Shown here one piece after another: positions 18,665 to 44,606 of a stretch of DNA of 54,716 bases. The position numbers and the translations under genes are program-made. Under the pieces are notes generated by a model that did no database searches, was not told the origin of the DNA, and saw nothing but the letters and a program-made list of their open reading frames with translations. The stretch is from a virus, in IMG/VR virus record IMGVR_UViG_3300044712_002217, positions 1 to 54,716 of that record, one strand, 5' to 3'. Numbering within the stretch: the stretch's first letter is position 1; every line of letters starts with the position of its first letter.

Positions 18665-18665
18665 T

Positions 18666-19612: not shown

Positions 19613-19625
19613 GAGTGTTTTTCCT

Positions 19626-24334: not shown

Positions 24335-24339
24335 TTAAA

Positions 24340-25164: not shown

Positions 25165-25167
25165 ATC

Positions 25168-26035: not shown

Positions 26036-26746
26036 TTAAACCTTTCGTTTTGACTTATCTTGCGCTAACTTCCGCGTTGAAAAACTTAAATTTGTACCTC
26101 TCGTTAAATCAAACTCAACCTTGGCATTAAAACTAAAGATCCACTTCAAAACCCTAACCAACTGACCTAAGGTTTCAATTCTAAACTGCTTTCCAAAAAC
26201 TTTTGTCTTTCGTGCAAACTTTAATACTTTTACAATATTTTTTGCAGTCTGAGAACGCGAAAACAACCCAGGGTTATTCACCCCCATCACCACCAGCATC
26301 TCCTTTAGGGTTGGTTCTTTCCCCCCTACGCAATTCAAATAAAAGGCAATCCCCTTGACCCAGCTTAATAAAGGCACAGCCCATTGCCTAGAGTGTTCAA
26401 AAATTGTATCTGTAAAGCCATTAAACCTATGCATTGGTTTTTCGAACCCAGGCAAGCATCTAAAAAACGGATATTCGAACGTTGTTAAAGTAATATCTGC
26501 CATAATTGACTCACAACCACAGATTGGGCAGTGCATGCCTGAATACCAGCGCGCATAATTTAACAAATTATAGAAATGAAGTGGGAAATGTTCGTAAAAC
26601 ACAAACGCATCATCAATTGGAATTGCGTTCGCATCAATCGTGTCTCCTGTTACTTTCCATATGTTGTTGTCGAGTTCGCGTAACCTTGGGGGAAACCCCC
26701 CTAAGGTTTCATGTTCCGACTGTTTCGCAATATATTCTTTTTCCAA
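26036..26746 (-). CDS. Hypothetical protein with a CPICGC motif
   Basis: A 236-aa protein. HCPICGCES near residue 72 suggests one half of a zinc-binding knuckle; a second clear pair is missing (a Cys occurs at FFRCLPG). An aromatic N-terminal half (YEHFPLHFYNLLNYARWYS) is followed by a helical basic C-terminus (STRKLAQDKSKRKV). It follows the 26759 gene closely and precedes the repeat-protein genes. Possibly a nucleic-acid-associated regulator; unproven. Confidence 0.62.
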   Translation of the reverse strand: MEKEYIAKQSEHETLGGFPPRLRELDNNIWKVTGDTIDANAIPIDDAFVFYEHFPLHFYNLLNYARWYSGMHCPICGCESIMADITLTTFEYPFFRCLPGFEKPMHRFNGFTDTIFEHSRQWAVPLLSWVKGIAFYLNCVGGKEPTLKEMLVVMGVNNPGLFSRSQTAKNIVKVLKFARKTKVFGKQFRIETLGQLVRVLKWIFSFNAKVEFDLTRGTNLSFSTRKLAQDKSKRKV

Positions 26747-28845: not shown

Positions 28846-29343
28846 CTATACCAGCACGTTGCTGAACATTGAAAGTGTGCCATTCCACTTAGTGTAAAAA
28901 AAGTTGAAATTCAACATTTCCTGCGCCGCAAGACAATCCGAGATGTCAGCAATATTTATCTTGGTATCCTCAACAGAGATCGAGAAACAAAATTGATCAA
29001 AGTTTTCATTCTCCATTATTAATTGCTCTATTGTGAAACGTATGTTTGCAATTAACGTCTCAAGATCTATATCTTCGCTTACGAGAAATCTAACCAAGGT
29101 TGTGAGGCTTGTAGCATCGGCAGTTTTACCATCATTTGTATATACCAGGTGATGTACCCAATTTAACTCAGTCTCAATAATTTCTAGGGTTTTTTGTGGT
29201 TGTTTTTCCACCCCTTCAATGCCGATAACTATATGGCGATAGGATTCATTGTTTAGTTCACTGAGTTTGACTGCGGCATATTTAACTGCCTGTATTGCTC
29301 TAAACTCAGCTTCTAGTGCTTTATCTTTTTCAACGGTATTCAT
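28846..29343 (-). CDS. Single-domain member of the (F/Y)C-I-S family
   Basis: A 165-aa protein starting MNTVEKDKALEAEF. Motifs in order: RHIVIGIEGVEK (strand), LNWVHHLVY, IDLETLIANIRFTIEQLI (helix), FCFSISVEDTKINIADI, FFYTKWNGTLSMFSNVL. It aligns in this order with the 29372 and 29991 products and with each half of the 27724 product. CTCC-type ribosome-binding sequence (GGAG on the minus strand) precedes the ATG. Confidence 0.73.
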   Translation of the reverse strand: MNTVEKDKALEAEFRAIQAVKYAAVKLSELNNESYRHIVIGIEGVEKQPQKTLEIIETELNWVHHLVYTNDGKTADATSLTTLVRFLVSEDIDLETLIANIRFTIEQLIMENENFDQFCFSISVEDTKINIADISDCLAAQEMLNFNFFYTKWNGTLSMFSNVLV

Positions 29344-29350
29344 ATCTATT

Positions 29351-29379
29351 CTCCTTTTGGGTTGGTGTATGTTAACGTT
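29351..29379. repeat. 29-base intergenic direct repeat, copy 1
   Basis: The stretch from CTCCTTTTGGG to GTTAACGTT is identical at 29964-29992. Each copy carries the ribosome binding site for the downstream gene and touches the stop codon of the upstream one. It marks a recent tandem gene duplication. Confidence 0.85.
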
Positions 29380-29956
29380 TTGCCTTTTTTCTTAAGTCTC
29401 TTGCTTTAATTCTTTTTGGTGTTAGGTGGTTTCTATACAGGTAAAGAACACCACCACTATAGTCGTTAAAAAAGAAGGCGGTCTCAAACAATCCATGTTT
29501 AACAAGGTAGTTCCCAATATCCGCAATGCTATGATTCAGGCCTTTAGTAGAGATTGAAATACAATAGTGATTATAATCATTCCTCGAAAGTACTTCGTTA
29601 AGTTTTGAACCCAAGTTAATCACTATTGACTGAAGGTCAATCTCAGGGTTCGCTGCAAGGTCAATCTCAGTAGTATAACTAAGTGAATCTTTGAAATGAT
29701 GATGGTCGTGGAAAATATTGTTATATACTTCCCCAAATACACTGTGGTTTACCCACCCTGTTTCTCTGTTTAATTCATTTGTCTGCTCCCTGCATTTTAC
29801 TTCTTCTTTACCCTCAATATAAAACGCAACGTGACGAAAGCCCCCGCAGAAAAATGATTTTTCATAAGATAGTTGACTTAGCCGCAGAGCAGCAAAGTTA
29901 ACAATTTGGCGCGTGCGTGTTGTAATTTCAGTTTCTAATTTTTCAACGCTATTCAT
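29372..29956 (-). CDS. Single-domain member of the (F/Y)C-I-S family
   Basis: A 194-aa protein starting MNSVEKLETEITTRTR. Motifs: RHVAFYIEGKEE, TGWVNHSVF, IDLQSIVINLGSKLNEVL, YCISISTKGLNHSIADI, FFFNDYSGGVLYLYRN, then a very basic tail (KRIKARDLRKKAKR) absent from the siblings. It lies between two copies of a 29-base identical intergenic sequence. Confidence 0.73.
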   Translation of the reverse strand: MNSVEKLETEITTRTRQIVNFAALRLSQLSYEKSFFCGGFRHVAFYIEGKEEVKCREQTNELNRETGWVNHSVFGEVYNNIFHDHHHFKDSLSYTTEIDLAANPEIDLQSIVINLGSKLNEVLSRNDYNHYCISISTKGLNHSIADIGNYLVKHGLFETAFFFNDYSGGVLYLYRNHLTPKRIKARDLRKKAKR

Positions 29957-29963
29957 TTCTAGT

Positions 29964-29992
29964 CTCCTTTTGGGTTGGTGTATGTTAACGTT
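29964..29992. repeat. 29-base intergenic direct repeat, copy 2
   Basis: Identical to 29351-29379; lies between the 29991 and 29372 genes. Confidence 0.85.
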
Positions 29993-30542
29993 ATGCTACT
30001 TTTTTCTTGGCTTCCAATGCATTACTAAGCATGTAAAGAGTATTTTCACTGTAGTTGTGAAAAGTGTGATAGGTTAAAAACGTTCCATTTGTAAAAATAT
30101 AATTACAAATATCGGTAATATCAATTTTGCAATTCTTAACTGAGATCGAGAAACAAAATGGGATGTCACCACCTTGAAGAGCCAGATCTTTAAGAGTTTC
30201 GCGTAAGTTTGTCAGCAACGTTTCAATATCTTTCTTTCGGTTAACTAAGAAGGTAATCTCTGTAGCTAAAATTACAGAACCACTCAATTGATTTTCTTCA
30301 TTGCTAACACGACTCAATAGATCGGCAAAAACGCTATCCTTATCCAATTTTGTCTCAGATGTAACAACGCCCAAGGATGAGTCTTTGCAATCCAATCCTT
30401 TTTTCCATTCGATGTTAAATGCAATATGGTGATAGGTTGCAGACGGAAAACCATTTAAAGAGCTTATACGCTTAGCTGCAACGTTAACTTCTCCTATTGT
30501 CTCTTCAGTGATTTGGTAGTTATTTTTTTCAACTGTATTCAT
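29991..30542 (-). CDS. Single-domain member of the (F/Y)C-I-S family
   Basis: A 183-aa protein from the ATG at 30542 (MNTVEKNNYQITEE), which has AGGAGAAAAG upstream; the frame from 30572 lacks such a site and its siblings also start MNTVEK or MNSVEK. Motifs: YHHIAFNIEWKKG, KDIETLLTNLRETLKDLA, FCFSISVKNCKIDITDI, FHNYSENTLYMLSNAL. It is the first gene of the 30.5-22 kb leftward accessory series, directly behind a strong promoter. Confidence 0.75.
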   Translation of the reverse strand: MNTVEKNNYQITEETIGEVNVAAKRISSLNGFPSATYHHIAFNIEWKKGLDCKDSSLGVVTSETKLDKDSVFADLLSRVSNEENQLSGSVILATEITFLVNRKKDIETLLTNLRETLKDLALQGGDIPFCFSISVKNCKIDITDICNYIFTNGTFLTYHTFHNYSENTLYMLSNALEAKKKVA

Positions 30543-31081: not shown

Positions 31082-31546
31082 ATGACTGACAAGACTCTTT
31101 ATGACTCAGACTATCATCTGTGGATTCAAGAAAATATCCATGCTTTAGAGAGTCGTGATATTTCTAAAGTTGATATCCCAAACTTACTTACCGAGATTCG
31201 AAAGCTTGAGAATGCTGAAGTACAAGAACTTAAAAAACTCCTCATGCGCTTGATGGCTAACCTACTCTCATGGTCAACTAAAAGTAGTTACAGAACCCCC
31301 GCTTGGGCTGATATGATTTTTGATTTGAGAAAAGTTATCAACTCTATCTTAAAGGTTAGTCCATCGTTCAAGAATGAATTATTAAACTTTTGCAACGAGA
31401 CTTACCCTGGTGCTTTATATATTGCATGTAATATGTGTGATCTAAACAATAGTGCTTTCCCTAAAACCCTTCAGATGTCTGTCTTTGAACTTCTGAAATA
31501 TGACTTTTCTAAAAACATTGATGAAATTAACATTCCTATTGTTTAA
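31082..31546 (+). CDS. DUF29 family protein
   Basis: A 154-aa protein with the DUF29 pattern: YDSDYHLWIQENIHALESRD (about 7-26), IPNLLTEIRKLENAEVQELK (helix), LMRLMANLLSWSTK and a helical remainder. DUF29 proteins are common in bacterial chromosomes and mobile elements, with no established function. It is the only rightward gene in the 22-54 kb stretch and stands in a GC-shifted pocket, so it is probably cargo rather than a virion gene. GAAAGG lies upstream. It ends 11 bases inside the opposite-strand extended frame of the 31650 gene. Confidence 0.8.
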   Translation: MTDKTLYDSDYHLWIQENIHALESRDISKVDIPNLLTEIRKLENAEVQELKKLLMRLMANLLSWSTKSSYRTPAWADMIFDLRKVINSILKVSPSFKNELLNFCNETYPGALYIACNMCDLNNSAFPKTLQMSVFELLKYDFSKNIDEINIPIV

Positions 31547-31754
31547 CGAACCCTTCTTTGTTATATTGAATTTGCATAGATCCTTCTGGGTTTATTACCT
31601 TGATAATCTCTGAACCCAGGTTACCTCCCTTACTTGGGTTCTTTGCTTCTCATGCCATTACTTTTATCTTCACCCATAGTATAAATACCCCAACCAGCAT
31701 TCCCATCATAAATATAATCAGATCACTAATAACCATTTTTGTTTCCTTCTTCAT
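31536..31754 (-). CDS. Small membrane protein interrupted by an in-frame UGA
   Basis: From the ATG at 31754 (AAGGA nine bases upstream) the frame gives a 34-aa peptide with one membrane segment (VISDLIIFMMGMLVGVFILW) ending at a TGA at 31650-31652. The same frame then continues without a stop for 37 credible residues (EAKNPSKGGNLGSEIIKVIN... to ...KEGFVKQ) and ends with TAG at 31536. Either the UGA is read through, or a point mutation truncated a 72-aa membrane protein, or a second peptide starts internally (CTG after AAGGGAGGT). It is the last gene of the leftward late region. Confidence 0.5.
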
Positions 31755-31766
31755 TGTATTTTATCC

Positions 31767-32744
31767 TTACCCCCCAATTGCTTTGAAGGTAACTTTACAT
31801 ATTTGATAAATTATGTTCACACACATACCTACAAATAATCCCGCTCCTATAAAATATACCAGCCCTTCCCAAAAACCTATATCAGTTCGAGTTATCTCTT
31901 TAAGCTTCTTTTCTATATCTTTCGGCATCTTAGCTTCTTCTACTTCTAGTTGTGTCTCTCCTCTTACACCCTCTATTGCTTTTATTAAGAACTCGTTTGC
32001 CTCACCTAGCTTTCCATTTTTCTTTAACTCTACTACATGATTTGCTATTTTCTTTTCTAATCTTCTGAATTCTATTGCTTCATCTATCTTCATTTCTTCC
32101 GTTAAGTCTCTTACTTTTTCATCTATCAACATTTGTAATTGACCCCGCAATGCATCGTATCTCATATCTTCTGTGTAATCTTTACTTGCTATCACGTCTT
32201 TTAAGTACTCAACTGCTTCAGTTATTTTGTCTCGATCCACCAACTGATCCAGCTTCCTTCCTACCTCACCATTAAACCTTAGATTGAGTTCACCGTACGC
32301 AATCGGCCCGTCTCCAAACACTTGATTATAGACTTCTATCATTTTCAAACCCCTTATCCTATTCTTTGTAAATGTTCCTTCACTTATTGTTTCCATCCTT
32401 CCTTTAGCTATCCTTTCGTATTTGCCTTTCGACTTTAACCATTTAATCCAACTACTCCATTCAGTAATTGCACACTCTATCCTATACTTTCGATCATCTA
32501 TTCCTAATCTTCGCATAAAATCCCTAACCTCTTCTTCAGGTAATGGCTTTCCATCGTCTTCGCTCCGTTCACCTCTGTCTTCAACCTCTACCTTTGCACA
32601 TTTTACCTCTATCCCTTTTTTATCCAGTACAACCTTGTCCCATATCTCTTTCATTCGCGCATTATAATGATCCAATGCGCTTTGCCCTTTCAATAACTTT
32701 ATTAATACTTTATCGCCATCATCAATCTTTTTCTCCATTACCAT
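31767..32744 (-). CDS. Helical protein with C-terminal membrane anchor
   Basis: A 325-aa charged, helix-rich protein. The N-terminus carries the shared motif KLLKGQSALDHYNARMK. The middle is Lys/Glu-rich helices (YLKDVIASKDYTEDM, DEAIEFRRLEKKIANHVVEL). Residues about 295-317 (FWEGLVYFIGAGLFVGMCVN) form a membrane segment. It is downstream of the large ejection-type gene and upstream of the UGA-split membrane peptide. It may be a membrane-docked partner in DNA entry or a lysis-timing protein. Not recognised. Confidence 0.7.
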   Translation of the reverse strand: MVMEKKIDDGDKVLIKLLKGQSALDHYNARMKEIWDKVVLDKKGIEVKCAKVEVEDRGERSEDDGKPLPEEEVRDFMRRLGIDDRKYRIECAITEWSSWIKWLKSKGKYERIAKGRMETISEGTFTKNRIRGLKMIEVYNQVFGDGPIAYGELNLRFNGEVGRKLDQLVDRDKITEAVEYLKDVIASKDYTEDMRYDALRGQLQMLIDEKVRDLTEEMKIDEAIEFRRLEKKIANHVVELKKNGKLGEANEFLIKAIEGVRGETQLEVEEAKMPKDIEKKLKEITRTDIGFWEGLVYFIGAGLFVGMCVNIIYQICKVTFKAIGG

Positions 32745-32761
32745 TTCCTTTCAATTTGAGT

Positions 32762-33100
32762 TCAGTTACTACCATAAGGTTCGATTTGAATTATAACCTT
32801 TGTCCCTTCATCTGTAAGTACTTTCACGATCATAAACATTGGGCATCTATCGATATCTAGTGGTTTGAATGTTAGCCATCTTTTATTTACTCCCATCTCT
32901 ATTATTGTATCCATTATGCTAGTATCTAGCTTTTCCCTCAATACCCTATACAGGTTGTCCTCGACATAGTCTTGGTTATAATCGGTTAGCCAACTCAACA
33001 TGTATCCTACTTTTGTTTCGTACTTTTCATACGCTTCTTCACCTCCTAGTAGGTATGACGCTAATTTACTTTGTACCGTCTCTTCTTCCATTTCTTTCAT
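32762..33100 (-). CDS. Small protein with the LLGGEEAYEKY motif
   Basis: A 112-aa protein starting MKEMEEETVQSKLASYLLGG. The motif SYLLGGEEAYEKYETKV matches KYLMGETNYKRYKDKV of the 37212 product and related segments elsewhere in the late region. The C-terminal half is a short beta-rich part (MFMIVKVLTDEGTKVIIQIE). Sits just downstream of the 915-aa ejection-type protein. Function unknown. Confidence 0.65.
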   Translation of the reverse strand: MKEMEEETVQSKLASYLLGGEEAYEKYETKVGYMLSWLTDYNQDYVEDNLYRVLREKLDTSIMDTIIEMGVNKRWLTFKPLDIDRCPMFMIVKVLTDEGTKVIIQIEPYGSN

Positions 33101-33113
33101 GTTTTACTCCTTT

Positions 33114-35861
33114 CTATTCATTGTCTTCTACTGTATGCATTACGCGCCCAATATTCTTTAGCATGTCTCTAATAGCCTTGGACTTTGTATGTGGCACAAT
33201 TTCATTAATGGCATCGATCATTTTTCTTTTTGTTTTAGCATTTTCATACATGACCATCCATTTTCCAACTTTTGCATTGGTTAATGCTCTATTCCCTGTA
33301 ATTTTAACCAGTATCGGTGCAACTGCCTTACCCATAGTTGAAATACTTCCAGTCTTAGCTCCAAGCATTAACCCCTTGAACGCATTGTAAAGTAAGGCTG
33401 CGTCTACGGATACCAACCCATGCTTAGACGATCCTGAGGTGTTTTCAAGCTTATGAACGTGTTGCATGTCTTCTACAACTTTACTCAGGTTGTCATAAAT
33501 AGGCAACTTGTCTCCATATATCGCGCGCTTCGATTCAATATCAAGTCCTTTGTATCGATTATGCCAAGTTAAAGGGTTGAACTCCTTTTTGTTATTATTT
33601 CCCATGATCCGATTGGTTGTTTCGATAAACCTTTGATGTTGCCCTTCATTCATACCATCCGTAATAAACCCAACCTTCCTTCCATCGCTGTTTCTTGCAC
33701 TATTGGTCAGTTGCCTTGTAAACTCTACAGGATCTTCAACGTCCCTCAATAGTTCATTGCGTTGCTTCCGTTCTGTTGTAAGGAAATCTACATAGTCCCG
33801 ATAGGTATCCCTGAAGTGTTGATAATCTCCTGGGCTTTTCATTTTCATTTGTTTTCCTACACTTGCCTCTACGTCTTCCCACATATGGCCATATAAGTTC
33901 CTTAGCTCTCCAAGATCGGCTGTTGTAAACCCTTTGCCTGTTGGGTATAGACTTCTTAGGTATTGCATTGCATCCTTCACATAAGGATATTCCATATTCA
34001 AATACGGTGCGATCAATGGATTATCTACGAGTGATTCTCCCCCTATTTTCTTTCGTATTATTTCAAGCAACAATGGGTCGTCTACGATATGACTATTGCC
34101 GCTAGCTCCCTTTATCGAAATAGGTTCTTGATTTTTTTTAAGGATCTCTCCCAAATCCTTTTTTTCCTTTGGAGATAAAAAGTCTGCCTTTTGTTTACCT
34201 TTTACAATTTTTTCGACATTGTTTCTCACTTCTTCTGCCACAATTAAGTTCAAGAACTTTCCTGCGGGCGTATCCATTCTTAACTTAATGTGTCCTGGCC
34301 TTGCCGTTACGTCTTCAAAAAAGTCTTTTATGAACTCTTTTGTTTTAACTAATGGCACGATTTGATCGGTATGTTCTTTAACTGACTTTTTAGTCCTTTT
34401 AAAGTCTTTGTCGATCTGTTCTTGTAGTTTCTTAGTGTTATGTTCATAGGCTGCTATTGCTTCATTACCGTGAGTTGAGGCATTGAACTCTTCCGCGTGA
34501 AGTGGTGTTATTTTTTCAGAGACAGTTTGAAGTTGTTTGTCTAGCTTGTCCCTAACGTCACCACCAAATATACTATGCTCGGCTTGCTTCCCTAAAATCT
34601 TGATCCCTTTGTTCTCTGTAAGGTTGACGGGATACACAGGAACGCCTGCTTCTTCGTACAGCTTTTGCTTTTTTCCTGCCTCTGATAAATGTTCTGGGGT
34701 TTCGTTATGTAACCCTCCCTCTTCAAACATTTCTTTGGTCTGCCCAGCATCTTTCAAAGCATCTCCTTCTTTTATGCTGTTCTTAAATTTCCTGGCTGCT
34801 GCGCTATAGTTTGATAACCCCCTAGCTACTTTCCCGCCTCCCAAAGATCCAAGCGCACTTAACACAACTGAAGCAGCTGGGCTGCTAACCCCTGAAGCTA
34901 TCGGCAGAATTGTTCCCCCAATGTTCGAACCAAGATCAACTGGATTTCGAATATCAGATCCTGCTTTTAAGAAGTCGCCAGTCTTATCAATTACCTTACC
35001 TACTTTCTCTCCAGCTTTCCCAAGCTTAGATACATTCTGCGCACCCTTTTTCAATAACGTTCCTGTCCCTCCATATAAAGCCATTTCTGGAATTACAGAT
35101 ACCAAAGCATTTGCCTTGTTTGCAAACTTACTTTCTGGAGGTTCGAGTCCAATGCTTTTCAAACTATCTTCAGCAAACTTGTGAACTTTTCCATATAAGT
35201 TAGAGTTAGCTCCTTCATAGTCTCCCTTCTTAATACTTTGTCTCCCTGTTATATCATGTTCTTCTGGTGCGCCCGCATGACCCATGTTGATCATGGTGCT
35301 ACCAATCGCAGATCCAACGTCCACCAATCCAGGGAGTGCAGATACAACCTCAGCTCCTAGTTGTCCTGCTCTATCTAGTGGATGCTTTACTGTTTCAGTT
35401 GCATAATCCCCTACGTTTTCTAAGAATCCCTTTCGATCTGAGGCGTTGTATTTGATCTCTTCTAATTTTTGTTTGGTTTCTTCTGCTTCAAGTTGTTTCC
35501 TTTGACTAATCTCGTCCATCTTACTTTGAAGTAATTGCTCCGCCTGTACTAATGGTATATTTTTTTTCTGTGCAATCAGTTGTGCGTTATTTAAAAAATT
35601 TGTTTCGATTTTATTGTAGTCAGGTATTCCATATGGATTCTTAGGCATCTGTTCAACCTGTTCATTTTCAATTGGTTCATTCCCTATACCCTCCATCGGA
35701 TTCTTTCGCATCGCCTCATCCTGATATTCGTTTGTTGGTTCAGCCTCTAAACCACTCATCCTATTAATTTTTCGTTTGAGCATGTTAAGGGCTGCTGCTT
35801 CATCTATGCCCTTATATTGAGCGATAAGTTTAGAGCTTTTCTGCAATTGGTTTTTATCCAT
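33114..35861 (-). CDS. Large internal virion (ejection/pilot-type) protein
   Basis: A 915-aa protein. The N-terminus has two similar helical segments (KLIAQYKGIDEAAALNMLK and QLIAQKKNIPLVQAEQLLQ). At about 155-350 there are Gly/Ala/Ser-rich hydrophobic stretches (VVSALPGLVDVGSAIGSTM; ILPIASGVSSPAASVVLSAL) able to insert into membranes. A long charged helical region follows. This architecture is typical of podovirus ejection proteins (P22 gp16/gp20, T7 gp16) that leave the head and cross the envelope. No lytic transglycosylase motif is seen. AAAGGAAT precedes the ATG. The 233-base leader (35862-36094) contains two hairpins. Confidence 0.7.
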   Translation of the reverse strand: MDKNQLQKSSKLIAQYKGIDEAAALNMLKRKINRMSGLEAEPTNEYQDEAMRKNPMEGIGNEPIENEQVEQMPKNPYGIPDYNKIETNFLNNAQLIAQKKNIPLVQAEQLLQSKMDEISQRKQLEAEETKQKLEEIKYNASDRKGFLENVGDYATETVKHPLDRAGQLGAEVVSALPGLVDVGSAIGSTMINMGHAGAPEEHDITGRQSIKKGDYEGANSNLYGKVHKFAEDSLKSIGLEPPESKFANKANALVSVIPEMALYGGTGTLLKKGAQNVSKLGKAGEKVGKVIDKTGDFLKAGSDIRNPVDLGSNIGGTILPIASGVSSPAASVVLSALGSLGGGKVARGLSNYSAAARKFKNSIKEGDALKDAGQTKEMFEEGGLHNETPEHLSEAGKKQKLYEEAGVPVYPVNLTENKGIKILGKQAEHSIFGGDVRDKLDKQLQTVSEKITPLHAEEFNASTHGNEAIAAYEHNTKKLQEQIDKDFKRTKKSVKEHTDQIVPLVKTKEFIKDFFEDVTARPGHIKLRMDTPAGKFLNLIVAEEVRNNVEKIVKGKQKADFLSPKEKKDLGEILKKNQEPISIKGASGNSHIVDDPLLLEIIRKKIGGESLVDNPLIAPYLNMEYPYVKDAMQYLRSLYPTGKGFTTADLGELRNLYGHMWEDVEASVGKQMKMKSPGDYQHFRDTYRDYVDFLTTERKQRNELLRDVEDPVEFTRQLTNSARNSDGRKVGFITDGMNEGQHQRFIETTNRIMGNNNKKEFNPLTWHNRYKGLDIESKRAIYGDKLPIYDNLSKVVEDMQHVHKLENTSGSSKHGLVSVDAALLYNAFKGLMLGAKTGSISTMGKAVAPILVKITGNRALTNAKVGKWMVMYENAKTKRKMIDAINEIVPHTKSKAIRDMLKNIGRVMHTVEDNE

Positions 35862-36067: not shown

Positions 36068-36103
36068 AATACCTAACCTTATCTCGCAATTCGGTTAGGT
36101 ATT
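36068..36103. terminator. 11-bp hairpin at the end of the small-gene nest
   Basis: AATACCTAACC (36068-36078) pairs with GGTTAGGTATT (36093-36103). On the + strand it is followed by TTTTC, on the - strand by AGACAATT. The stop codon of the 36095 gene lies in the stem. With a second GAGGGG/CCCCTC hairpin near 36021-36047 it occupies the leader of the 33114 gene and may attenuate leftward transcription. Confidence 0.6.
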
Positions 36104-36331
36104 TTTCTTTAAATCGCATATCAAATCTAATTTTTTGTTTATTTTATGACAGTTGTCTATCACTTCATCAATTTCTTCATTTATTCTTTCTAGATCTTTT
36201 ATATCTTCTTTTAGATTTTCGATCCTTTTGTTCAAACTTCTTCCCATCACACTACAAATTACACTCACTGTAATTGTGCTTATCGCAAAGGATGTAGCAA
36301 ACGCTACCATAGCAGCTTCTATATTAACCAT
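36095..36331 (-). CDS. Small single-span membrane protein with coiled coil
   Basis: A 78-aa protein from the ATG at 36331, eight bases after GGGAG (a GTG at 36337 is the alternative). Membrane segment at about 5-27 (AAMVAFATSFAISTITVSVI), then a charged coiled coil (LNKRIENLKEDIKDLERINE) with two Cys near the end. It is one of four adjacent short membrane genes. Size and topology would allow a holin- or pinholin-like role, but no family is recognised. Confidence 0.7.
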   Translation of the reverse strand: MVNIEAAMVAFATSFAISTITVSVICSVMGRSLNKRIENLKEDIKDLERINEEIDEVIDNCHKINKKLDLICDLKKNT

Positions 36332-36333
36332 TA

Positions 36334-36576
36334 TCACATCTCCCTTCCTTCTAGGTCTTTAACACGGTCTCTGATATCTTCTGTTTTGTCTTGGTTTTTG
36401 AGACTTTCTGTTTTAAGCTCCCTTAAGATCTTCCTCATTCTATATTCCATATAGCTTAACAATCCATATGTTGTGACAACTACAAGTAAAAGTAAAAATG
36501 CATAATAAACATACTCTGATTCGCATAATTTTGATATTTCTGCCCTATATGCTTCAATAATTGATTTCAAATCCAT
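36334..36576 (-). CDS. Small single-span membrane protein with coiled coil
   Basis: An 80-aa protein: N-terminal amphipathic helix (LKSIIEAYRAEISKL), membrane segment at about 22-43 (YVYYAFLLLLVVVTTYGLL), then a charged coiled coil (MRKILRELKTESLKNQDKTE). It has the same overall plan as the 36095 product, whose reading it overlaps by a few bases at the GTG. The two might interact through their coiled coils. Confidence 0.7.
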   Translation of the reverse strand: MDLKSIIEAYRAEISKLCESEYVYYAFLLLLVVVTTYGLLSYMEYRMRKILRELKTESLKNQDKTEDIRDRVKDLEGREM

Positions 36577-36580
36577 TTTT

Positions 36581-37042
36581 CTACCTTAAAAACACAAAAT
36601 AAACAATTTCAAGAACCAGCATTACTATAATGATTCTTGTGGTTATCAGCTTTCTGTTTAGGCTTTCGATCTTTTTAATCATTCTTTCTCCCTTTTTTAT
36701 TACTGAGTCAATTTCTAAAGATTTAGCTAAAACAGTCTCTTTTGCCTCCGCTATCTCTGAAACATTAACGTTTTTCCAATCTCTTTCCTTTGCATCGTCT
36801 TCAAAGATTGCCATCCCCAATGCAGTCCTAAACGTTATCAACGTTTTAATGTCTTCCAAATCATTGATATCTTCTGCAATCTTTCTTCCAGTAACCTGTA
36901 ATATTAAGTCATCTACTGCATCATTAAAGGCCTTATATATAAATGGTATTTTACCCTTTTCACCTTTATGAAACCTTACGCAAAGATCCAGAACTTTTTG
37001 ATTGTATTTTTTATCTAATATGGCTGCTTCTAATTCCGTCAT
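36581..37042 (-). CDS. IYKxF-family helical protein with C-terminal membrane anchor
   Basis: A 153-aa protein. The core has the family marks FIYKAFNDAVDDLI, RTALGMAIFEDDAKERDW and NVSEIAEAKE, paralogous to the 37212 and 37851 products (SPIYK.F, FESK.W.D). Unlike them it adds a coiled coil and a C-terminal membrane segment (TTRIIIVMLVLEIVYFVFL). It overlaps the 37011 gene by 32 bases. It could tether the soluble paralogues to the membrane. Confidence 0.7.
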   Translation of the reverse strand: MTELEAAILDKKYNQKVLDLCVRFHKGEKGKIPFIYKAFNDAVDDLILQVTGRKIAEDINDLEDIKTLITFRTALGMAIFEDDAKERDWKNVNVSEIAEAKETVLAKSLEIDSVIKKGERMIKKIESLNRKLITTRIIIVMLVLEIVYFVFLR

Positions 37043-37199
37043 CCGAACCTCCTTTTTCGTGTGCCAATACCTTATATATCTTTTCTAGTGTTTCTTCAAT
37101 TTTATGGAATCTATTCATTGTCAGTATTTGTCCGGAAATTGCCTGTATAGCCCACGCTGTAATTCCTATTAACAACATTACCTTTTCTCGTTGTTCCAT
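37011..37199 (-). CDS. Small single-span membrane protein, 62 aa
   Basis: Starts MEQREKVMLLIGITAWAIQA, with one membrane segment (about 8-26) and a short helical tail (FHKIEETLEKIYKVLAHEK). It overlaps the next gene and follows the 37212 gene closely. Same design as the other small membrane proteins in the nest. Unrecognised. Confidence 0.68.
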   Translation of the reverse strand: MEQREKVMLLIGITAWAIQAISGQILTMNRFHKIEETLEKIYKVLAHEKGGSDDGIRSSHIR

Positions 37200-37211
37200 C
37201 TTACCCCTCCT

Positions 37212-37838
37212 TTAATGAATTGTCGTTTTTGTATACGTCAATCCTTGTTCCGCAATGTTTATATATTCTTTTAATACCCTTCCAACCGCTTTATTTATGT
37301 CCGTTGTGTTCACGTCTGCCCAGTTTTTACTTTCAAAGTCTTCGTCTAAGTGAAACTTTTCAAATATCGCCATGGTTAATGCAATACGGTTGTTGAATAC
37401 AAATATCATTTCTTTTGGACTAAACTTGCTTTCATCAAAATCTTTTTTGAGTAATGTTTTTATAATAAGCTTGATCGAGGTATTAAATTTCTTGAATATC
37501 TTATAGATTGGGCTTGTTTCTTTAGCATCCAAAGCTTTGCCAAAAAGTTCAAACATTCGTTCAACGGCTTTCTTGTACCACTGCATTCCCATTGGATCAC
37601 CCACGTAAGTCTTCTGAATTTTCTCTTCTATATGACTTATTTCATTCATGAGCTCTTCGTAAAAGCTTTCTTCCATGCACCCTGCCAATCCTATAGTAAG
37701 GTCCTCAAGTCTTAATATTTTGTTTTTATCGTTTGAAAGCACCTTATCCTTATACCTTTTATAATTGGTCTCACCCATAAGGTATTTCAATTTATATTCA
37801 ACTTCTAGCGTGCTAACTTCATCTAAACCATTTTCCAT
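37212..37838 (-). CDS. IYKxF-family helical protein, 208 aa
   Basis: N-terminal motif KYLMGETNYKRYKDKVL, a middle GCMEESFYEELMNEISHIEE and the family core SPIYKIFKKFNTSIKLII, then FVFNNRIALTMAIFEKF, DFESKNWADV and the ending TKTTIH. The 37851 product ends the same way (PGTTIH) and shares every block, so the two are tandem duplicates. Soluble, helical. Function unknown; the position in the late region implies late expression. Confidence 0.72.
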   Translation of the reverse strand: MENGLDEVSTLEVEYKLKYLMGETNYKRYKDKVLSNDKNKILRLEDLTIGLAGCMEESFYEELMNEISHIEEKIQKTYVGDPMGMQWYKKAVERMFELFGKALDAKETSPIYKIFKKFNTSIKLIIKTLLKKDFDESKFSPKEMIFVFNNRIALTMAIFEKFHLDEDFESKNWADVNTTDINKAVGRVLKEYINIAEQGLTYTKTTIH

Positions 37839-37850
37839 TTATTCACTTCC

Positions 37851-38378
37851 TTAATGAATTGTTGTCCCAGGGTATGCACCAATAATCCAGCCAAGCTCGG
37901 CATATTCTTTCAGCATTCGATTTACAACACTTTTTACGTCTTCTGGCGTGATATCGTCCCACGTTTTGCTTTCAAAGTCCCCATCGTTTTTTTTACCTTC
38001 CAAGATTCCAATGCATAACGTTATACTTACCCCAAAAATAAACGCACGCTCCTTTGGATTTGGATTTTCTTTATTGACACTATTTTTACTTATCATATCT
38101 ACAATTAATTCTACCCCCGACTTAAACTCTTTGAAAGTTTTATAGATTGGGCTAGATTCTTCGGCATCAATCCCCAATACAAAAAGATCAAACCCCATAT
38201 GAACGCTTTTCTTATATAGCCTAACCCTTACATGATCTTCGGGATATTCGCCGATAAGATCTTTTTCAAGTCTGTTCATTTCTTTCATGAACTCGTTGAA
38301 ATAGTCTCCACCCATATGTTCTTTTAGTCCGTCTACCAATTCATCAGGGGTTAATAGGTTGTTTTCATCTTTGGTCAT
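37851..38378 (-). CDS. IYKxF-family helical protein, 175 aa
   Basis: Starts MTKDENNLLTPDELVDGL, with KEHMGGDYFNEFMKEMN, SPIYKTFKEFKSGVELIV, FIFGVSITLCIGILEGKK, DFESKTWDDI and the ending PGTTIH. Paralogue of 37212. Its first residues (TKDENNLL) are matched by the 38538 product (TKEENTLF), which supports the unusual start proposed there. It overlaps the upstream gene by 14 bases. Confidence 0.72.
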   Translation of the reverse strand: MTKDENNLLTPDELVDGLKEHMGGDYFNEFMKEMNRLEKDLIGEYPEDHVRVRLYKKSVHMGFDLFVLGIDAEESSPIYKTFKEFKSGVELIVDMISKNSVNKENPNPKERAFIFGVSITLCIGILEGKKNDGDFESKTWDDITPEDVKSVVNRMLKEYAELGWIIGAYPGTTIH

Positions 38379-38541
38379 CTTTAGCTTTGCTTTCTTCTAC
38401 AATTCTGTTGATTTTAGACTCATAAAGAGCTTTTTTAAATGATATCATAGCTTTCTTTAACATTTCATATCCCTCCCATCCTTCAAAATATTTTAAATCT
38501 TGCGCTAGTCCACCTAATATTTTTTCCTCTTCTTGAGTCAT
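38365..38541 (-). CDS. Tiny helical protein, 58 aa
   Basis: From the ATG at 38541 (AGGAAACAGA immediately upstream): MTQEEEKILGGLAQDLKYFE then GWEGYEMLKKAMISFKKAL and a charged end. LKYFE..E....LK.A is shared with the 38767 product (LKHFEDSESIHRLKYAK) and loosely with 38538 (GLADILKYPKTKD). ATGA overlap with the gene upstream. Missed by ordinary length filters. Confidence 0.65.
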   Translation of the reverse strand: MTQEEEKILGGLAQDLKYFEGWEGYEMLKKAMISFKKALYESKINRIVEESKAKDDQR

Positions 38542-38774
38542 TCTGTTTCCTGTTGTCTTTCTGTCTCTCGTTCAAATTCTGGCTCACCCTCTTCTTTAAC
38601 CCAGTACTTTTCTACCAATTCTTTGATTAACCTGTCAGAATCTTTGGTTTTAGGATATTTTAATATATCTGCAAGTCCATTTATTACTTGCATGGTGTTT
38701 TCTCCAAAATACTCTGTTAATTGACGGTTAACTTCTTCATCGTTTAAAAATAACGTGTTTTCTTCTTTAGTTAT
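38538..38774 (-). CDS. Tiny helical protein with a probable AUA start codon
   Basis: The frame is open from ATA at 38774-38772 to TGA at 38538 (78 aa). Its initiation region GAGGAAACAGC-ATA-ACT-AAA-GAA-GAA is almost a copy of that of the next gene, CAGGAAACAGA-ATG-ACT-CAA-GAA-GAG. A stop lies five codons upstream and no ATG, GTG or TTG occurs before codon 28, so an ordinary start would lose the conserved N-terminus (TKEENTLFLNDEEV, compare TKDENNLLTPDELV of 37851). Either AUA initiates weakly or the gene was silenced by a G-to-A change. It overlaps the 38767 gene by eight bases. Confidence 0.55.
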   Translation of the reverse strand: MTKEENTLFLNDEEVNRQLTEYFGENTMQVINGLADILKYPKTKDSDRLIKELVEKYWVKEEGEPEFERETERQQETE

Positions 38775-38931
38775 GCTGTTTCCTCTTTAGCTCTATCTTT
38801 TCTAATTCTTGAACCTCTTTTAGAAATTTATCAAATTCTTTCTCTTTTTGGTATAATATCTTTGCATACTTTAAGCGATGAATGCTTTCACTATCCTCAA
38901 AATGTTTCAAGTTTGCTTCATCCTTATTCAT
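38767..38931 (-). CDS. Tiny helical protein, 54 aa
   Basis: MNKDEANLKHFEDSESIHRL onward, ending in a coiled-coil-like basic tail (LEKIELKRKQHN). GGAAGAAACAAC precedes the ATG, which overlaps the stop of the 38928 gene. Together with 38538 and 38365 it forms three chained very small genes in a stretch that looks empty at usual ORF cut-offs. Confidence 0.65.
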   Translation of the reverse strand: MNKDEANLKHFEDSESIHRLKYAKILYQKEKEFDKFLKEVQELEKIELKRKQHN

Positions 38932-39335
38932 GTTGTTTCTTCCTTTTTAAATGCACTTTTCATCAATATCATTAATTGTATGTGAGCCGCATCCCTAATA
39001 TTTTCCCTTGTTATTTCTTCCCAATCTTTGAAGTCGGTCATTTCGCAGAGGTTTCTTGTTAACCACATCATAACCCCCATTGTTGCGCCGATCTCATGAA
39101 TGTTTTTAAACTCTTCAGAGTCAATAGCTATTGACAAATCATCTTTTATAATCTCCCTCAATAATTTGTTAATCGTATCTTTTTTAATAGCTTCTGTTAT
39201 TATCTTTGCATATTTTTCTAATGCTCTAAAGATCTCATAGATCTTACTTTCTTCACCACCTTCATAAGCGCGGCGTATAATCTGTCGCACCAAATCCAAA
39301 TAAAAGTCTTCATTCTTAATATCCTTTTCAGTCAT
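38928..39335 (-). CDS. IYxxF-family helical protein, 135 aa
   Basis: Contains SKIYEIFRALEKYAKIITEA, then GATMGVMMWLTRNLCEMTDF and KDWEEITRENIRDAAHIQL, aligning with the SPIYK.F, TLCIGILE and W.DI...DI blocks of 37851 and 37212. It is the first gene of the small-gene nest and follows the 39352 virion gene by 16 bases. Soluble; function unknown. Confidence 0.7.
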   Translation of the reverse strand: MTEKDIKNEDFYLDLVRQIIRRAYEGGEESKIYEIFRALEKYAKIITEAIKKDTINKLLREIIKDDLSIAIDSEEFKNIHEIGATMGVMMWLTRNLCEMTDFKDWEEITRENIRDAAHIQLMILMKSAFKKEETT

Positions 39336-39351: not shown

Positions 39352-40503
39352 TTACTCGTTCAATATACGTTTTGTGGCCTCATCACTCAAGTCATTAACA
39401 CCCTGTGCCGCCATATTTTCTTGTGCCTGTGACTCATTTGATACATTTTTAGGTTTTTCAGAATTTCTCACTTGTTTTGAACCCATGTCCTGATTACCCT
39501 GCCTTGTTGGCTCAGGTCTACCCCCACCTAACATTTTTTCAGCTTCTTCTGGGTTCTCATCATAAAACAATTGGGCATCCATCGGTGAAATTCCATTTCG
39601 AGCTGACTCCATTATAAATTTTGAACGAGCCATTTTTTCTTCAGCTTCTTGTCTTAAACCATCCAACATCCTATTCATTGCGTTTGTACCTATTGTAAGG
39701 TCTGGCTTTCCTTTTAACACCTGCTCCGCCATAAAGTTTGTGACTTTAATTCCAGGTTTTGCAAAGAATCCGATAGATTTGGTGACCAATTGATTCAAAC
39801 TTTTGTCTACAATTTTAATTTGATCAGGATCATTTCCTGTTGCCTGAGCCAACACCCTGTAATTAACGTTCCCTAATGCCCCCTCAATTCCATTATAAGG
39901 CTTAAGCATGGCGATTTGTTTTTTGATAACATCAACCTCTTTACTAACTTCTTTTGCCTGGTTATATTCTTGCACATAAGGCTTTGCCTCTATTTTGTTT
40001 TCTTGTATTTCTTTGTTTTTATGTTCTTGAGCTTTTGCGTCTATGTTCCTTAGCTGACCTTCGTGCTTTAAATAATTCCCCTCACGTGCGATATCAAGTT
40101 TTTCACGTTGAAGTGCCATCATTTCCTTGTCCTTACTTCGTTTGTAGTTATAATCATCTACAAATTGATAAGTTTGGGCAATGGACTGATCGATAAGAGA
40201 TTGTTTTTCAAGGTTCTTTTCTTGACCTACCCTGTGGTTTTCCAACCCTTCATTTCCTCCTGCCATTCCGCGGGCAAGCGCGCCCAAAAAGCTTTCATTT
40301 TTTGGAGAACTCATAATTCCTTGTGAAGCCCCCGATAAAAACGATCCACCCTTACTTGCACCTTGGAATTGATTTTGGAGCTGCTGCTTTTGTTTTTGTA
40401 AACCTTCAACCATTTGTTGCTGTTGTGGGTTCAGCTGAGGAGCAGCCATCTGTCCCCCTGCCCCTCCCATCATATTATTTTTTAACGTTTGAATCATGCT
40501 CAT
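39352..40503 (-). CDS. Internal virion protein, Gln- and helix-rich
   Basis: A 383-aa protein from the ATG at 40503 (MSMIQTLKNNMMGGAGGQ), which has GAGGAAAAAATC upstream; the frame from 40539 starts inside the previous gene. Gly/Gln-rich N-terminus (QLNPQQQQMVEGLQKQKQQL), then long charged helices, with a disordered C-terminus. Its composition and place between two other Gly/Ala/coiled-coil proteins suit a podovirus ejection protein (P22 gp7/gp20-like by analogy). Not proven. Confidence 0.6.
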   Translation of the reverse strand: MSMIQTLKNNMMGGAGGQMAAPQLNPQQQQMVEGLQKQKQQLQNQFQGASKGGSFLSGASQGIMSSPKNESFLGALARGMAGGNEGLENHRVGQEKNLEKQSLIDQSIAQTYQFVDDYNYKRSKDKEMMALQREKLDIAREGNYLKHEGQLRNIDAKAQEHKNKEIQENKIEAKPYVQEYNQAKEVSKEVDVIKKQIAMLKPYNGIEGALGNVNYRVLAQATGNDPDQIKIVDKSLNQLVTKSIGFFAKPGIKVTNFMAEQVLKGKPDLTIGTNAMNRMLDGLRQEAEEKMARSKFIMESARNGISPMDAQLFYDENPEEAEKMLGGGRPEPTRQGNQDMGSKQVRNSEKPKNVSNESQAQENMAAQGVNDLSDEATKRILNE

Positions 40504-40513
40504 GATTTTTTCC

Positions 40514-42064
40514 TCACTCTGTTGAAATATCTTTACCAAGCTTATTGATTGCTTTGTTTTTCAAATACAATCCACCAGCTCCTGTAGCAAGTGCCGCAAC
40601 ATCCTTCAAAACTGAATTAGGCTCTGGGGTTTGCTCCAGTATCGGTTGTCCTCCTGCAAGAGGCATTCGCATAGGTTCTCCAGGCCCCATCGTAGACATA
40701 AACTCAGGGCGGGTGCGTTGAGTGCGCTCTGGCAACACCAAGTCAGGTCGACCAATTGTTGCTCCACGTAATCTTTGCAAATAAGTATCGTATTGCGTAT
40801 CGTGATGCTTCTTTTCACGTTCAAACTCTTGGGCTTTGCGGTTAATATCTTCTTGGTTGGCCTGCCTTAAGTTTTGACCAACCGAAACAGCATTAAGAGC
40901 GTTTTTCCTACGCTCGTCACGTTTGCTTTCTTCTTCGATTTTATTGATCCGATATGCTTCAAGAGCTTTTTTTTGTTCTAGTTCATCGCTTCGTAGTGCA
41001 AGCACACCTTGGTTTCCCAAGTTTGTATCTTGTTGTTTAACAAGATTCATCTCAGTTTCGGCATCTAATTGGTTGAGTTCGCGGTTCATATTCTCATACA
41101 TTTTAGCCTTAAGAATATTTTCGCGCCCATTCCAACCAATCCGATTTGCCGCAAACTGTCTATCCATATCTCCAAACGAATCATGCAAACGTTTTAATGC
41201 GTTTTCACGTACAGTTTCAATCATTCGATCTTTTAAAGTTCTAGCCCTATCAAACTTATAGTCTGGGTTTGCATATCGTTCAAAGGCTTCCTTACCTATT
41301 CCTTCCGGTGGTCTAAATTTTTTAACTGGTTCTGGATTTAATCCTGATTGAACCAAGTCATTTAAAACTGTATAGCCTCCTTGCTCTAAGTTAGAGAGAG
41401 GCGCAGTTTTATTATGGGGGTTGGGTTCATACGGCTTGTTTGCAAGTCTCCTAGCAACTTCTTGAGCATTCAATAAGTTAACGTTTTCGGGGGGGATTCT
41501 AACCCCAGTCTCTGGATCATATTGATCCCCTACGTCTACGATTAATTCTCTTTTAGGTTCGGGATATGCAGATGAAGATCTAACTTTAGATGGAGCAACT
41601 GAAGAAGAAGTACCTCTACTTGGCTCTAAAATGCCCTTCGTTTTTAATTGCTCTTGAAACAGTTTCTCCCCCTCGACTGGTCCGTAATTTTCATGCAAAA
41701 TATTTCTAAGATTTTGAACAGCATCTTTTTGAGCATTTTGGGCTTTTTCATCAGCTATTACAAGTCTGTCCCTTTCCTGTTCAGCCCTTTTTAATTCCTC
41801 ACTTAAAGCTTTTATATTGGAGCTAGGAGCAGCAGTAGCCTGAGGTGGGATACTTATTGATCTTGAGGTTGTAGAGTTAGTCGTAGTAGGATTGTTATAG
41901 ATGGGTGTAATTTCTAACCCATCAGCCTCTTTTAAAAATTCTTGATATTTCTCTTCTCCTAAAAGTTGTTTTAGTCTCCGCGCTCCAGCTTCTGGCCCCA
42001 AAAGTTTATAAAGTCTATCTCTTTCTTTTTTTAAACCTTCAACGTAATTACTATTCATTGGCAT
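40514..42064 (-). CDS. Internal virion protein, coiled-coil-rich
   Basis: A 516-aa protein from the ATG at 42064, which overlaps the upstream stop (TGATG) and follows GAGGAG. Near the N-terminus, LLGPEAGARRLKQLLGEEKYQEFLKEA holds the late-region motif. A Pro/Ser/Thr-rich linker and long charged helices (residues 230-420) follow, and a short hydrophobic stretch near the end (VAALATGAGGLYL). Likely packaged inside the head and ejected, judged by composition and neighbours. Confidence 0.6.
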   Translation of the reverse strand: MPMNSNYVEGLKKERDRLYKLLGPEAGARRLKQLLGEEKYQEFLKEADGLEITPIYNNPTTTNSTTSRSISIPPQATAAPSSNIKALSEELKRAEQERDRLVIADEKAQNAQKDAVQNLRNILHENYGPVEGEKLFQEQLKTKGILEPSRGTSSSVAPSKVRSSSAYPEPKRELIVDVGDQYDPETGVRIPPENVNLLNAQEVARRLANKPYEPNPHNKTAPLSNLEQGGYTVLNDLVQSGLNPEPVKKFRPPEGIGKEAFERYANPDYKFDRARTLKDRMIETVRENALKRLHDSFGDMDRQFAANRIGWNGRENILKAKMYENMNRELNQLDAETEMNLVKQQDTNLGNQGVLALRSDELEQKKALEAYRINKIEEESKRDERRKNALNAVSVGQNLRQANQEDINRKAQEFEREKKHHDTQYDTYLQRLRGATIGRPDLVLPERTQRTRPEFMSTMGPGEPMRMPLAGGQPILEQTPEPNSVLKDVAALATGAGGLYLKNKAINKLGKDISTE

Positions 42065-43158
42065 CAAACTACTCCTCTGGTATTATTTATTGCTTTTATT
42101 GAATCCATACTAATATTAGGATAGTACTTTGCGTAGTATTCTTTAATCTGTTGGTTTCGCTGATTTTGGTAAGCGGCCTCATTTGCAATGTCTTCTCTAC
42201 GATTTGCTTCAAGCTGTTTTAAATGTTCTTGAATCCTTGCATTTTCAATCTCTCGATACTTCTTCTCTTCGGCATTTTTTTCATCAACACGCCGCTTTTC
42301 TTCTTCTCGGGTTGTTTTCATGTAGTCGTTATATTCATTAATTCGATTTTCGTTTTTTTCAGCTACAGATTGTTCTGCCTTTTTACTTTTTAAATAATCA
42401 TCGTAAGCTAAAGCAGCTCCCCCCGCACCTGCGGCAGCTAAAACTGGGATTGAGGTTGCGGCAGATCCAAGGGCTGCCCCCCCGGCTCCTAGACCACCAG
42501 CAGCTAACCCCTCAATTCCAGCCCCACCCGCATATCCTAACGCTCCAGAAGTTAACGCCTTACCCAACATTTGCCATCCACTCCTCTTCTTTTCAGGATC
42601 GTGTTCATAAAAGTTATGTATGACGTCCGCCGTCGTACTTCCAAGCGCTGCTCCGGCAGCTGATCCCCATCCTGGCAAAATGAATGTTCCAATCACTCCT
42701 CCAACTATGGGTAAAAAGACGTCTAAAAAGCCAAATTCTGGAAGTCCAGTTTCTTCGTTAACACGCTCTTCTACTGGAATTTCGTCAGGGTAAAGATCCC
42801 ACAAAAACTCCATCATTTCTTCTGGCATAAAGGCAACCTCGGTATCTCCTTCTTCGCCCTTTGAGGCAAGCTCTTGCTCTTTGGGATATTGTGGGGGTGG
42901 TACTTCACCCTCTATTTGCCCAAATACCTTTTGATTTTCACTCGAGATGATGCTTAGTTTTTGTTCCGCATCTTCTTCAGGCAGGTTCATTAACCCCTTA
43001 ATTCCGAGTGATATTTTTTCTTTGATCTCTGGACTTCCGTTTATAATCTCCCAAAGTTTTCCAAAATATGGTGCGCCGTATTTTTCTAAATCAGCACCCC
43101 CTTGGAATTGATTCATTTGTTTAATTTCTTCGGATTTGAAGTGACCAACTACATCCAT
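42064..43158 (-). CDS. Internal virion protein with Gly/Ala membrane-active core
   Basis: A 364-aa protein. GDTEVAFMPEEMMEFLWDLY followed by NEETGLPEFGF matches the GDT...P.....G...N..TG..E.F pattern of a widespread phage virion family, as does the 43252 product. Residues about 145-260 are Gly/Ala-rich and hydrophobic (FLPIVGGVIGTFILPGWGSA; GGLGAGGAALGSAATSIPVL), then a coiled coil (KTTREEEKRRVDEKNAEEKK). Candidate ejection protein. Its leader holds a nine-C run and a perfect palindrome. Confidence 0.62.
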   Translation of the reverse strand: MDVVGHFKSEEIKQMNQFQGGADLEKYGAPYFGKLWEIINGSPEIKEKISLGIKGLMNLPEEDAEQKLSIISSENQKVFGQIEGEVPPPQYPKEQELASKGEEGDTEVAFMPEEMMEFLWDLYPDEIPVEERVNEETGLPEFGFLDVFLPIVGGVIGTFILPGWGSAAGAALGSTTADVIHNFYEHDPEKKRSGWQMLGKALTSGALGYAGGAGIEGLAAGGLGAGGAALGSAATSIPVLAAAGAGGAALAYDDYLKSKKAEQSVAEKNENRINEYNDYMKTTREEEKRRVDEKNAEEKKYREIENARIQEHLKQLEANRREDIANEAAYQNQRNQQIKEYYAKYYPNISMDSIKAINNTRGVV

Positions 43159-43251: not shown

Positions 43252-44454
43252 TTAGGCTGCCAAAAATGGTAGATCTTGCGCTAATTCAGGCAGTATCGAG
43301 TCGAGAAGTCCTGAAATACCACTTTTTGCATAGCTTTGTGCGCCTTCCATATTTTCTGGGCTAATGTTACCCATACCTTGGCTTAAAGCTTCCATGGGTT
43401 CAGCTCCCCCTCTATAGGCATCAAAGGAATTTAACCCACCCTCCGCTCCAGCTCTTGCGATTGGATTTTGAATGTTTGGGATTTGTTCTCTTGCATTAGA
43501 AGTTACTGTATCGAGTGCAGTATTTCCCATAGAAGATAGATCAGGATTTTGTCCTGATTCCAAAGAACCTGAAACATTGCCACCTACATTATTGATTAGG
43601 CTGCTTGTTAGATTACCAAGCCCTGTTCCAAAAGTTGGGTTGACTTTATTGCCCAGTTCTTGTGCCTTTCCACCTACCGCATTAGAAATTGACGGCAAGC
43701 TTTGACGCAGGATATTTCCAGCCCCCTGCTTCAAAATGTCCAAAGCTGACTGCTGTTGGGGCGCACCCTGTTGTGCACCTACTCCGCCTTCTGCACCAGG
43801 CGTAGCTGCTGTAGTTCCAGGAGCTGCCTCATTTCCACTATTACCATAGTTAGTTAATAAAGAACTTGCAGTATTTCCGATAGAGTTTCCGAGATTCTGC
43901 GATAATTCAGGGGATAGCCCAGCTTTTTGTCCCAAAGCCGACAACCCTTGTGAAATCAAAGGTGACGCAAATTGCCCAATTGCGGGTGCAGCAGACTTAA
44001 ACAAGCTACCTAATTGACTTGTAAGTGGAGACAAGAAGTTTCCAATTGAACTTAGCATTCCACCTAAGAAATACTCTCTTTTTCCTGTGTGAGGGTTTCC
44101 TGGTTGGCGTCCTCCATAAAGTGCTTGATCAAAGAGATCTGCCATCACTTTTGGGAGAATGACAGCCTCAGTGTCTCCAAATCGCCCAGCTTTACGAATA
44201 GCTCCTTCTAACCCTTCATGACCACCTGGGTTTTTCCCCATGTAATCACCTTTGAACCGTTCGTAATAGGGTTGGAATCGTGGATGCTGGAACACCTCGC
44301 CTAAAGGCATAAAGGATGGATATTTAGTCTCAGGATCCAAATGTTTCCCGCCTTGTATCCTGGAAAGCTCTTCAATTTCAGGAATACTCATATGCGCGAT
44401 AACACGGTTTTCGGTATCTCTTAAGTGTGCAGGTAAATTATGTTCGTTATTCAT
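43252..44454 (-). CDS. Internal virion protein, Gly/Ser/Asn-rich
   Basis: A 400-aa protein from the ATG at 44454 (MNNEHNLPAHLRDTENRVIA); the frame from 44496 adds an unlikely lead. GDTEAVILPKVMADLFDQAL and NPHTGKREYFLGGMLSSIG match the 42064 product and the wider phage family of that pattern. The rest is low-complexity with repeated amphipathic stretches (QLGSLFKSAAPAIGQFASPL; LGNSIGNTASSLLTNYGNSG). Probably a head-internal or tail-tip protein. Confidence 0.6.
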   Translation of the reverse strand: MNNEHNLPAHLRDTENRVIAHMSIPEIEELSRIQGGKHLDPETKYPSFMPLGEVFQHPRFQPYYERFKGDYMGKNPGGHEGLEGAIRKAGRFGDTEAVILPKVMADLFDQALYGGRQPGNPHTGKREYFLGGMLSSIGNFLSPLTSQLGSLFKSAAPAIGQFASPLISQGLSALGQKAGLSPELSQNLGNSIGNTASSLLTNYGNSGNEAAPGTTAATPGAEGGVGAQQGAPQQQSALDILKQGAGNILRQSLPSISNAVGGKAQELGNKVNPTFGTGLGNLTSSLINNVGGNVSGSLESGQNPDLSSMGNTALDTVTSNAREQIPNIQNPIARAGAEGGLNSFDAYRGGAEPMEALSQGMGNISPENMEGAQSYAKSGISGLLDSILPELAQDLPFLAA

Positions 44455-44606
44455 TTTAAAACCTATTCTTATAAATATTATAGGTAATTTTAACATAATT
44501 TATTCGTTACAAAAATGTTATTCGAGAAAACCCTTGTGTTGAATTTTGATATATGATAATTTACTTTTAGATTCATCTTTTTTCATTTGATGAATCCTTG
44601 TTAAAG

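Follow-up and report, generated by a model that had tools for sequence, protein, structure and literature searches.

In podophages, one small operon encodes the ejectosome, which is built from soluble helical proteins together with membrane-active ones (PMC8954989). The locus described here raises the question of what ten very small genes do inside such an operon, and whether they serve DNA delivery. The window, the whole stretch of DNA analysed, is a 54,716-base IMG/VR virus contig, and positions 36095-39335 of its minus strand hold the gene cluster that we call the nest, the genes of which are named by their low (stop) coordinate (Table 1). A sequence-only reading had proposed a multi-part membrane complex, perhaps for genome entry or for lysis control. 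Three parts of that interpretation stand: the genes are real, their context is of the ejection type, and one paralogue has a predicted membrane anchor.

Counting minus-strand frames with an ATG start and at least 50 amino acids, we found all ten genes in place. They encode 51-208 aa and tile 96.8% of the nest, against a mean of 0.87 ORFs and 4.9% cover in 1000 dinucleotide-preserving shuffles (maximum 5 ORFs, 31% cover); on the plus strand, this interval holds only three ORFs (23% cover). Codon scores are positive in 10 of 10 ORFs, codon usage is in line with the remainder of the genome, and a purine-rich ribosome-binding site lies ahead of most starts. The intergenic spacing ranges from -32 to +12 nt, with overlaps of 4, 4, 14 and 32 nt and a sole exception of 73 nt before 38538. 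This spacing is that of one operon.

Table 1. Coordinates of the nest genes, the surrounding operon and other features of the window.
Feature	Position	Strand	Description
Paralogue 1	38928-39335	minus	135 aa, soluble, helical; E=4e-4 with 37851+37212 profile
Micro-gene	38767-38931	minus	54 aa, highly charged, helical; 4-nt start overlap with preceding stop
Micro-gene	38538-38693	minus	51 aa
Micro-gene	38365-38541	minus	58 aa; 4-nt overlap with 38538; possible helix-hairpin motif
Paralogue 2	37851-38378	minus	175 aa, predicted six-helix bundle; pLDDT 78, pTM 0.75
Paralogue 3	37212-37838	minus	208 aa; resembles 37851, with extra 33-aa N-terminal segment
Single-span protein	37011-37199	minus	62 aa; weak membrane helix, residues 7-25; helical tail
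Paralogue 4	36581-37042	minus	153 aa, without N-terminal helix pair; predicted C-terminal membrane helix
Single-span protein	36334-36576	minus	80 aa; predicted membrane helix 23-41, then charged helix
Single-span protein	36095-36337	minus	78 aa (ATG 36331) or 80 aa (GTG 36337); membrane helix, then coiled coil
Cassette gene A, copy 1	43252-44496	minus	Tape-measure-like family of DSL-LC04, hmmsearch E=1.8e-7
Cassette gene A, copy 2	42064-43158	minus	Same tape-measure-like family, hmmsearch E=1.8e-8; hydrophobic Gly-rich middle
Positional cassette gene B	40514-42064	minus	516 aa (ATG) or 517 aa (TTG), helical; by position and size only
Positional cassette gene C	39352-40497	minus	381-395 aa depending on start; by position and size only
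Positional cassette gene D	33114-35861	minus	915 aa; 233 nt past nest; by position and size only
Operon tail	31650-33100	minus	32762 (112 aa); 31767 (323-325 aa, C-terminal membrane helix); 31650 (34 aa, one membrane helix)
Integrase	4206-5378	plus	About 50% identical to Holosporaceae/Rickettsiales MAG integrases (nearest relatives)
GroEL	20145-21920	plus	Very divergent; 28-30% to best-listed phage GroELs
GroES-like protein	53814-54500	minus	Beside scaffold/capsid genes
Tandem paralogue array	9197-10130	plus	2 genes
Tandem paralogue array	18239-20069	minus	4 genes
Tandem paralogue array	23711-26031	minus	3 genes; GWEGW-repeat proteins
Tandem paralogue array	28846-30542	minus	3 genes
RNA ligase	13881-14621	plus
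DUF29 protein	31082-31546	plus
Zinc ribbon protein	26036-26746	minus	Weak IS1595-type match

The portal, TerL and major capsid protein (MCP) share about 18-30% identity with those of DSL-LC04, Pelagibacter phage HTVC027P, Roseobacter phage CRP-901 and Planktothrix phage Pag-Yong1. Judged by these sequences, it is a podovirus-type phage remotely related to the four; our searches found no close relative. It is temperate and encodes an integrase. A prophage in a Rickettsiales MAG (G284) carries homologues of the window's portal, TerL, MCP, GroES and both adaptors. A portal search of 263 genomes from that MAG's order gave three matches, one of them in a long contig with the whole cassette; among 50 genomes from the order of the Holosporaceae MAG, no prophage was detected by TerL or by the 915-aa protein. 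The host group is likely Holosporales/Rickettsiales-like. A group of IMG/VR contigs (L262-L285) have a cassette gene A that is 71-91% identical to that of the prophage (G284:C4), which points to a host for viral contigs that lacked an assignment, and a patatin-like phospholipase-type gene, judged by eye from its sequence, lies among the prophage tail genes (G284:C4:78634-79722). Elsewhere in the window, an RNA ligase, a DUF29 protein and a protein with a zinc ribbon match were observed. At least four further tandem paralogue arrays, unusual in a dsDNA phage, lie away from the nest operon; in one of them, 24340 exceeds the Pfam cut-off for INT_rpt, an integrase repeat unit.

The ejection cassette is best seen in the relatives. 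In the G284 prophage it comprises four adjacent genes of 500, 772, 309 and 604 aa, the first of which (gene A) is homologous to the DSL-LC04 'tape measure' protein (E=1e-82). The same cassette-opening family, marked by the motifs GDT-x-LAHI-x-P and NP-x-TGL-x-EYG, occurs in DSL-LC04, HTVC027P, Pag-Yong1 and the Rickettsiales prophage and includes 42064 and 43252 of the window; the opening gene is thus itself doubled here. In DSL-LC04, the opener is followed by a gene with a match to the PHROG family 'DNA ejection protein' (E=7e-9). Three large genes directly follow gene A, with no small gene between them, in 37 of the 44 relatives with enough downstream sequence (ORFs called mechanically, some loci near-identical). 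Within the Rickettsiales-prophage group, 17 loci have the fourth cassette gene, or a gene in the equivalent position, directly after the third.

In the window, by contrast, the order is 40514, 39352, the ten-gene, 3.2-kb nest and then 33114, so that the cassette is not contiguous. The three large genes have the order and size expected of cassette genes B, C and D and are assigned as such by position and size; no significant sequence match to genes B-D of the relatives was found. The earlier placement of the nest between ejection-type genes is supported upstream by the family match of 42064 and 43252, and for 39352 and 33114 by position only. The GC content of the nest is 0.29-0.37, compared with 0.40-0.42 in the flanks. 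No terminator-like site was found on the minus strand between 43540 and 30897, nest included, and one lies at 30897-30878, past the operon tail. Given the contiguous cassette of the relatives, the splitting of the positional third and fourth genes, the lower GC and the lack of a terminator, the nest is an insertion into a normally compact operon.

Four of the ten nest proteins share an IYKxF motif, and their proposed kinship held up. The proteins 37851 and 37212 are 37% identical, and TTIH forms the C-terminal end of both. Pairwise scores against shuffles gave z=43 for this pair, z=8 for 37212-36581 and z=7 for 38928-37851. When a profile of 37851 and 37212 alone was run against 338 window ORFs, 36581 (E=4e-5) and 38928 (E=4e-4) ranked next. 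By these sequence comparisons the four are related by descent, 37851 and 37212 strongly, 36581 and 38928 distantly. The AlphaFold models are helical bundles. Paralogue 36581, which the sequence-only reading regarded as having acquired a membrane anchor, has no counterpart of the N-terminal helix pair, and its C-terminal helix is hydrophobic (residues 94-152 in the AF2 model; pLDDT 75, pTM 0.63), and its description as an anchored paralogue therefore holds as a prediction. A possible N-terminal helix-hairpin motif of nest and cassette proteins has its best match outside the family in 40514; this match is weak (E=0.1-0.3 with paralogue-only profiles) and offers a hint of a motif common to 37851 and 40514. 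Stronger E-values for it came from mixed profiles and were rejected as circular. A resemblance to a T4 capsid-targeting sequence carries no weight in our argument.

The remaining six genes form less coherent sets. The three micro-genes had been grouped by an LK-F-E pattern, and this family was not confirmed on comparison, as the pairwise z values of 1.8-3.8 include none above the best shuffle; 38767 and 38538 gave no significant match in family profile searches. The proteins 37011, 36334 and 36095 each have one predicted membrane helix, as had been noted, with no significant mutual relation and no family match above cut-off. Below threshold, PHROG searches returned Rz-like spanin for 36334 (E=0.017) and 36095 (E=0.044), and holin for 36095 (E=0.018) and 36581 (E=0.11); 36095 had equally weak matches to unrelated coiled-coil families. 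A scan for lipobox-like patterns across 31-45 kb gave two matches, one inside 37212 and one beside the DUF29 gene, both of which were read as chance and rejected as o-spanin candidates. No endolysin was recognised among the proteins scanned. Charge-based (positive-inside) topology was computed for the single-span proteins and is not decisive; since Rz-type spanins themselves break the rule, we gave it no weight.

None of the ten nest proteins had a homologue in the collections searched. Single queries in IMG/VR with the 915-aa protein, 37851 and TerL found no relatives, and neither the four-paralogue alignment in IMG/VR nor a two-paralogue alignment in GTDB genomes gave a match. A nest profile run against 385 alphaproteobacterial genomes yielded one match, which proved to be a sugar epimerase and was rejected. 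The model of 37851 had no significant structural match in the PDB or BFVD, and matches of the nest proteins to PADLOC were all sub-significant. Such absence is no proof, because pattern scans reach only relatives that share short conserved stretches. As far as searched, no relative carries any of the ten genes, and synteny, suggested earlier as a check, therefore gives no support for their belonging together. Absence from relatives combined with decay of the frames had been named as counting against a functional set; the set is indeed absent from the relatives searched, and the frames are intact, with no decay.

We tentatively favour, at somewhat less than even confidence, the reading that the nest consists of lineage-specific accessory genes for DNA delivery, which lie between cassette genes three and four and have multiplied by tandem duplication. 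If transcribed together with the ejection genes, the nest would be expressed late and its proteins would take part in delivery. The soluble helical members of the paralogue family would either be packaged or partner the ejection proteins on the assembly side. The anchored member and the single-span trio would have their site of action at the inner membrane of the host, where this membrane set may either aid formation of the conduit or adjust it to an unusual host envelope. It is distinctly doubtful that the nest forms an accessory ejectosome in the full sense, in which packaged helical paralogues, the anchored paralogue and the single-span proteins together extend the conduit or fit it to an alphaproteobacterial host that is unusual and probably lives inside cells.

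The lower GC of the nest counts against the delivery reading, as it fits acquired genes of any function. The presence of at least four other tandem arrays in this phage means that duplication in the nest is not specific to ejection, which lowers the surprise, although paralogues are reported to be missing from most dsDNA phages (PMC5694885). These two properties favour the view that the nest consists of late-expressed cargo genes (morons) of unrelated function, for example host or anti-defence genes, in a tolerant operon gap, and the lack of homologues and of family matches agrees with it. The tight coupling by 4-nt overlaps and the single orientation speak against loose cargo, and the 37 of 44 relatives without insertion among the three genes after gene A argue that the site is not generally permissive. 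We consider this explanation unlikely.

Slightly less likely still is superinfection exclusion, in which the single-span and tail-anchored proteins would sit in the inner membrane and block assembly of the ejection conduit of incoming related phages. P22 SieA, which acts in this way, provides the model, a membrane protein of a temperate podophage that is functionally tied to the ejection proteins. A temperate phage with an integrase and four predicted membrane proteins within its ejection operon would suit such a role, which also fits rapid divergence and absence from relatives. However, SieA is a single gene with three spans, expressed from the prophage, whereas each nest membrane protein has one predicted span, and the genes for these proteins lie in an operon of the late type and have no convincing promoter to themselves; no homology to SieA was found, and the soluble paralogues are left unexplained.

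A lysis module, with at least one single-span protein acting as a holin or spanin to time or complete lysis, is improbable: the membrane helix followed by a coiled coil resembles an i-spanin, the weak PHROG matches point the same way, the rest of the window yielded no recognisable lysis genes, and the holin and lysozyme genes of relatives sit in the tail region, but the match levels are those expected of proteins with a membrane helix and a coiled coil, none exceeds the cut-off, and neither a lipoprotein partner nor a neighbouring endolysin was recognised.

Returning to the delivery reading, known systems offer partial parallels. The T7 gp14/15/16 and P22 gp7/20/16 operons encode, in late genes that lie side by side, internal proteins that are helical and in part membrane-active. 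The genes on either side of the nest belong to a cassette of this kind, with no sequence match to the T7 or P22 proteins found. These operons are compact, at about three genes, whereas that of the nest is interrupted by ten small ones. The cassettes of DSL-LC04, HTVC027P, Pag-Yong1 and G284 share a homologous gene A with the window; they lack the nest, and their genes B-D are not detectably homologous to the window's. Families A and B of the giant phage SPN3US are paralogous internal or ejection proteins of variable number (PMC5694885). Both they and the nest contain duplicates; SPN3US is an unrelated type of phage, and no similarity in sequence or fold was found.

The ejection operon of a podophage is as a rule small and compact, whereas this one carries an intact ten-gene insertion. 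Our interest is tempered, since the nest has a lower GC and tandem duplication is a habit of this phage. Few phages are known from the Holosporales/Rickettsiales-like group, and DNA delivery across the host envelope is therefore largely unexplored there. With its series of paralogues running from soluble to anchored, such an insertion would test the number of additional parts that DNA-injection machinery tolerates; alternatively, the nest would be a case of exclusion or lysis genes housed by a phage within its ejection operon.
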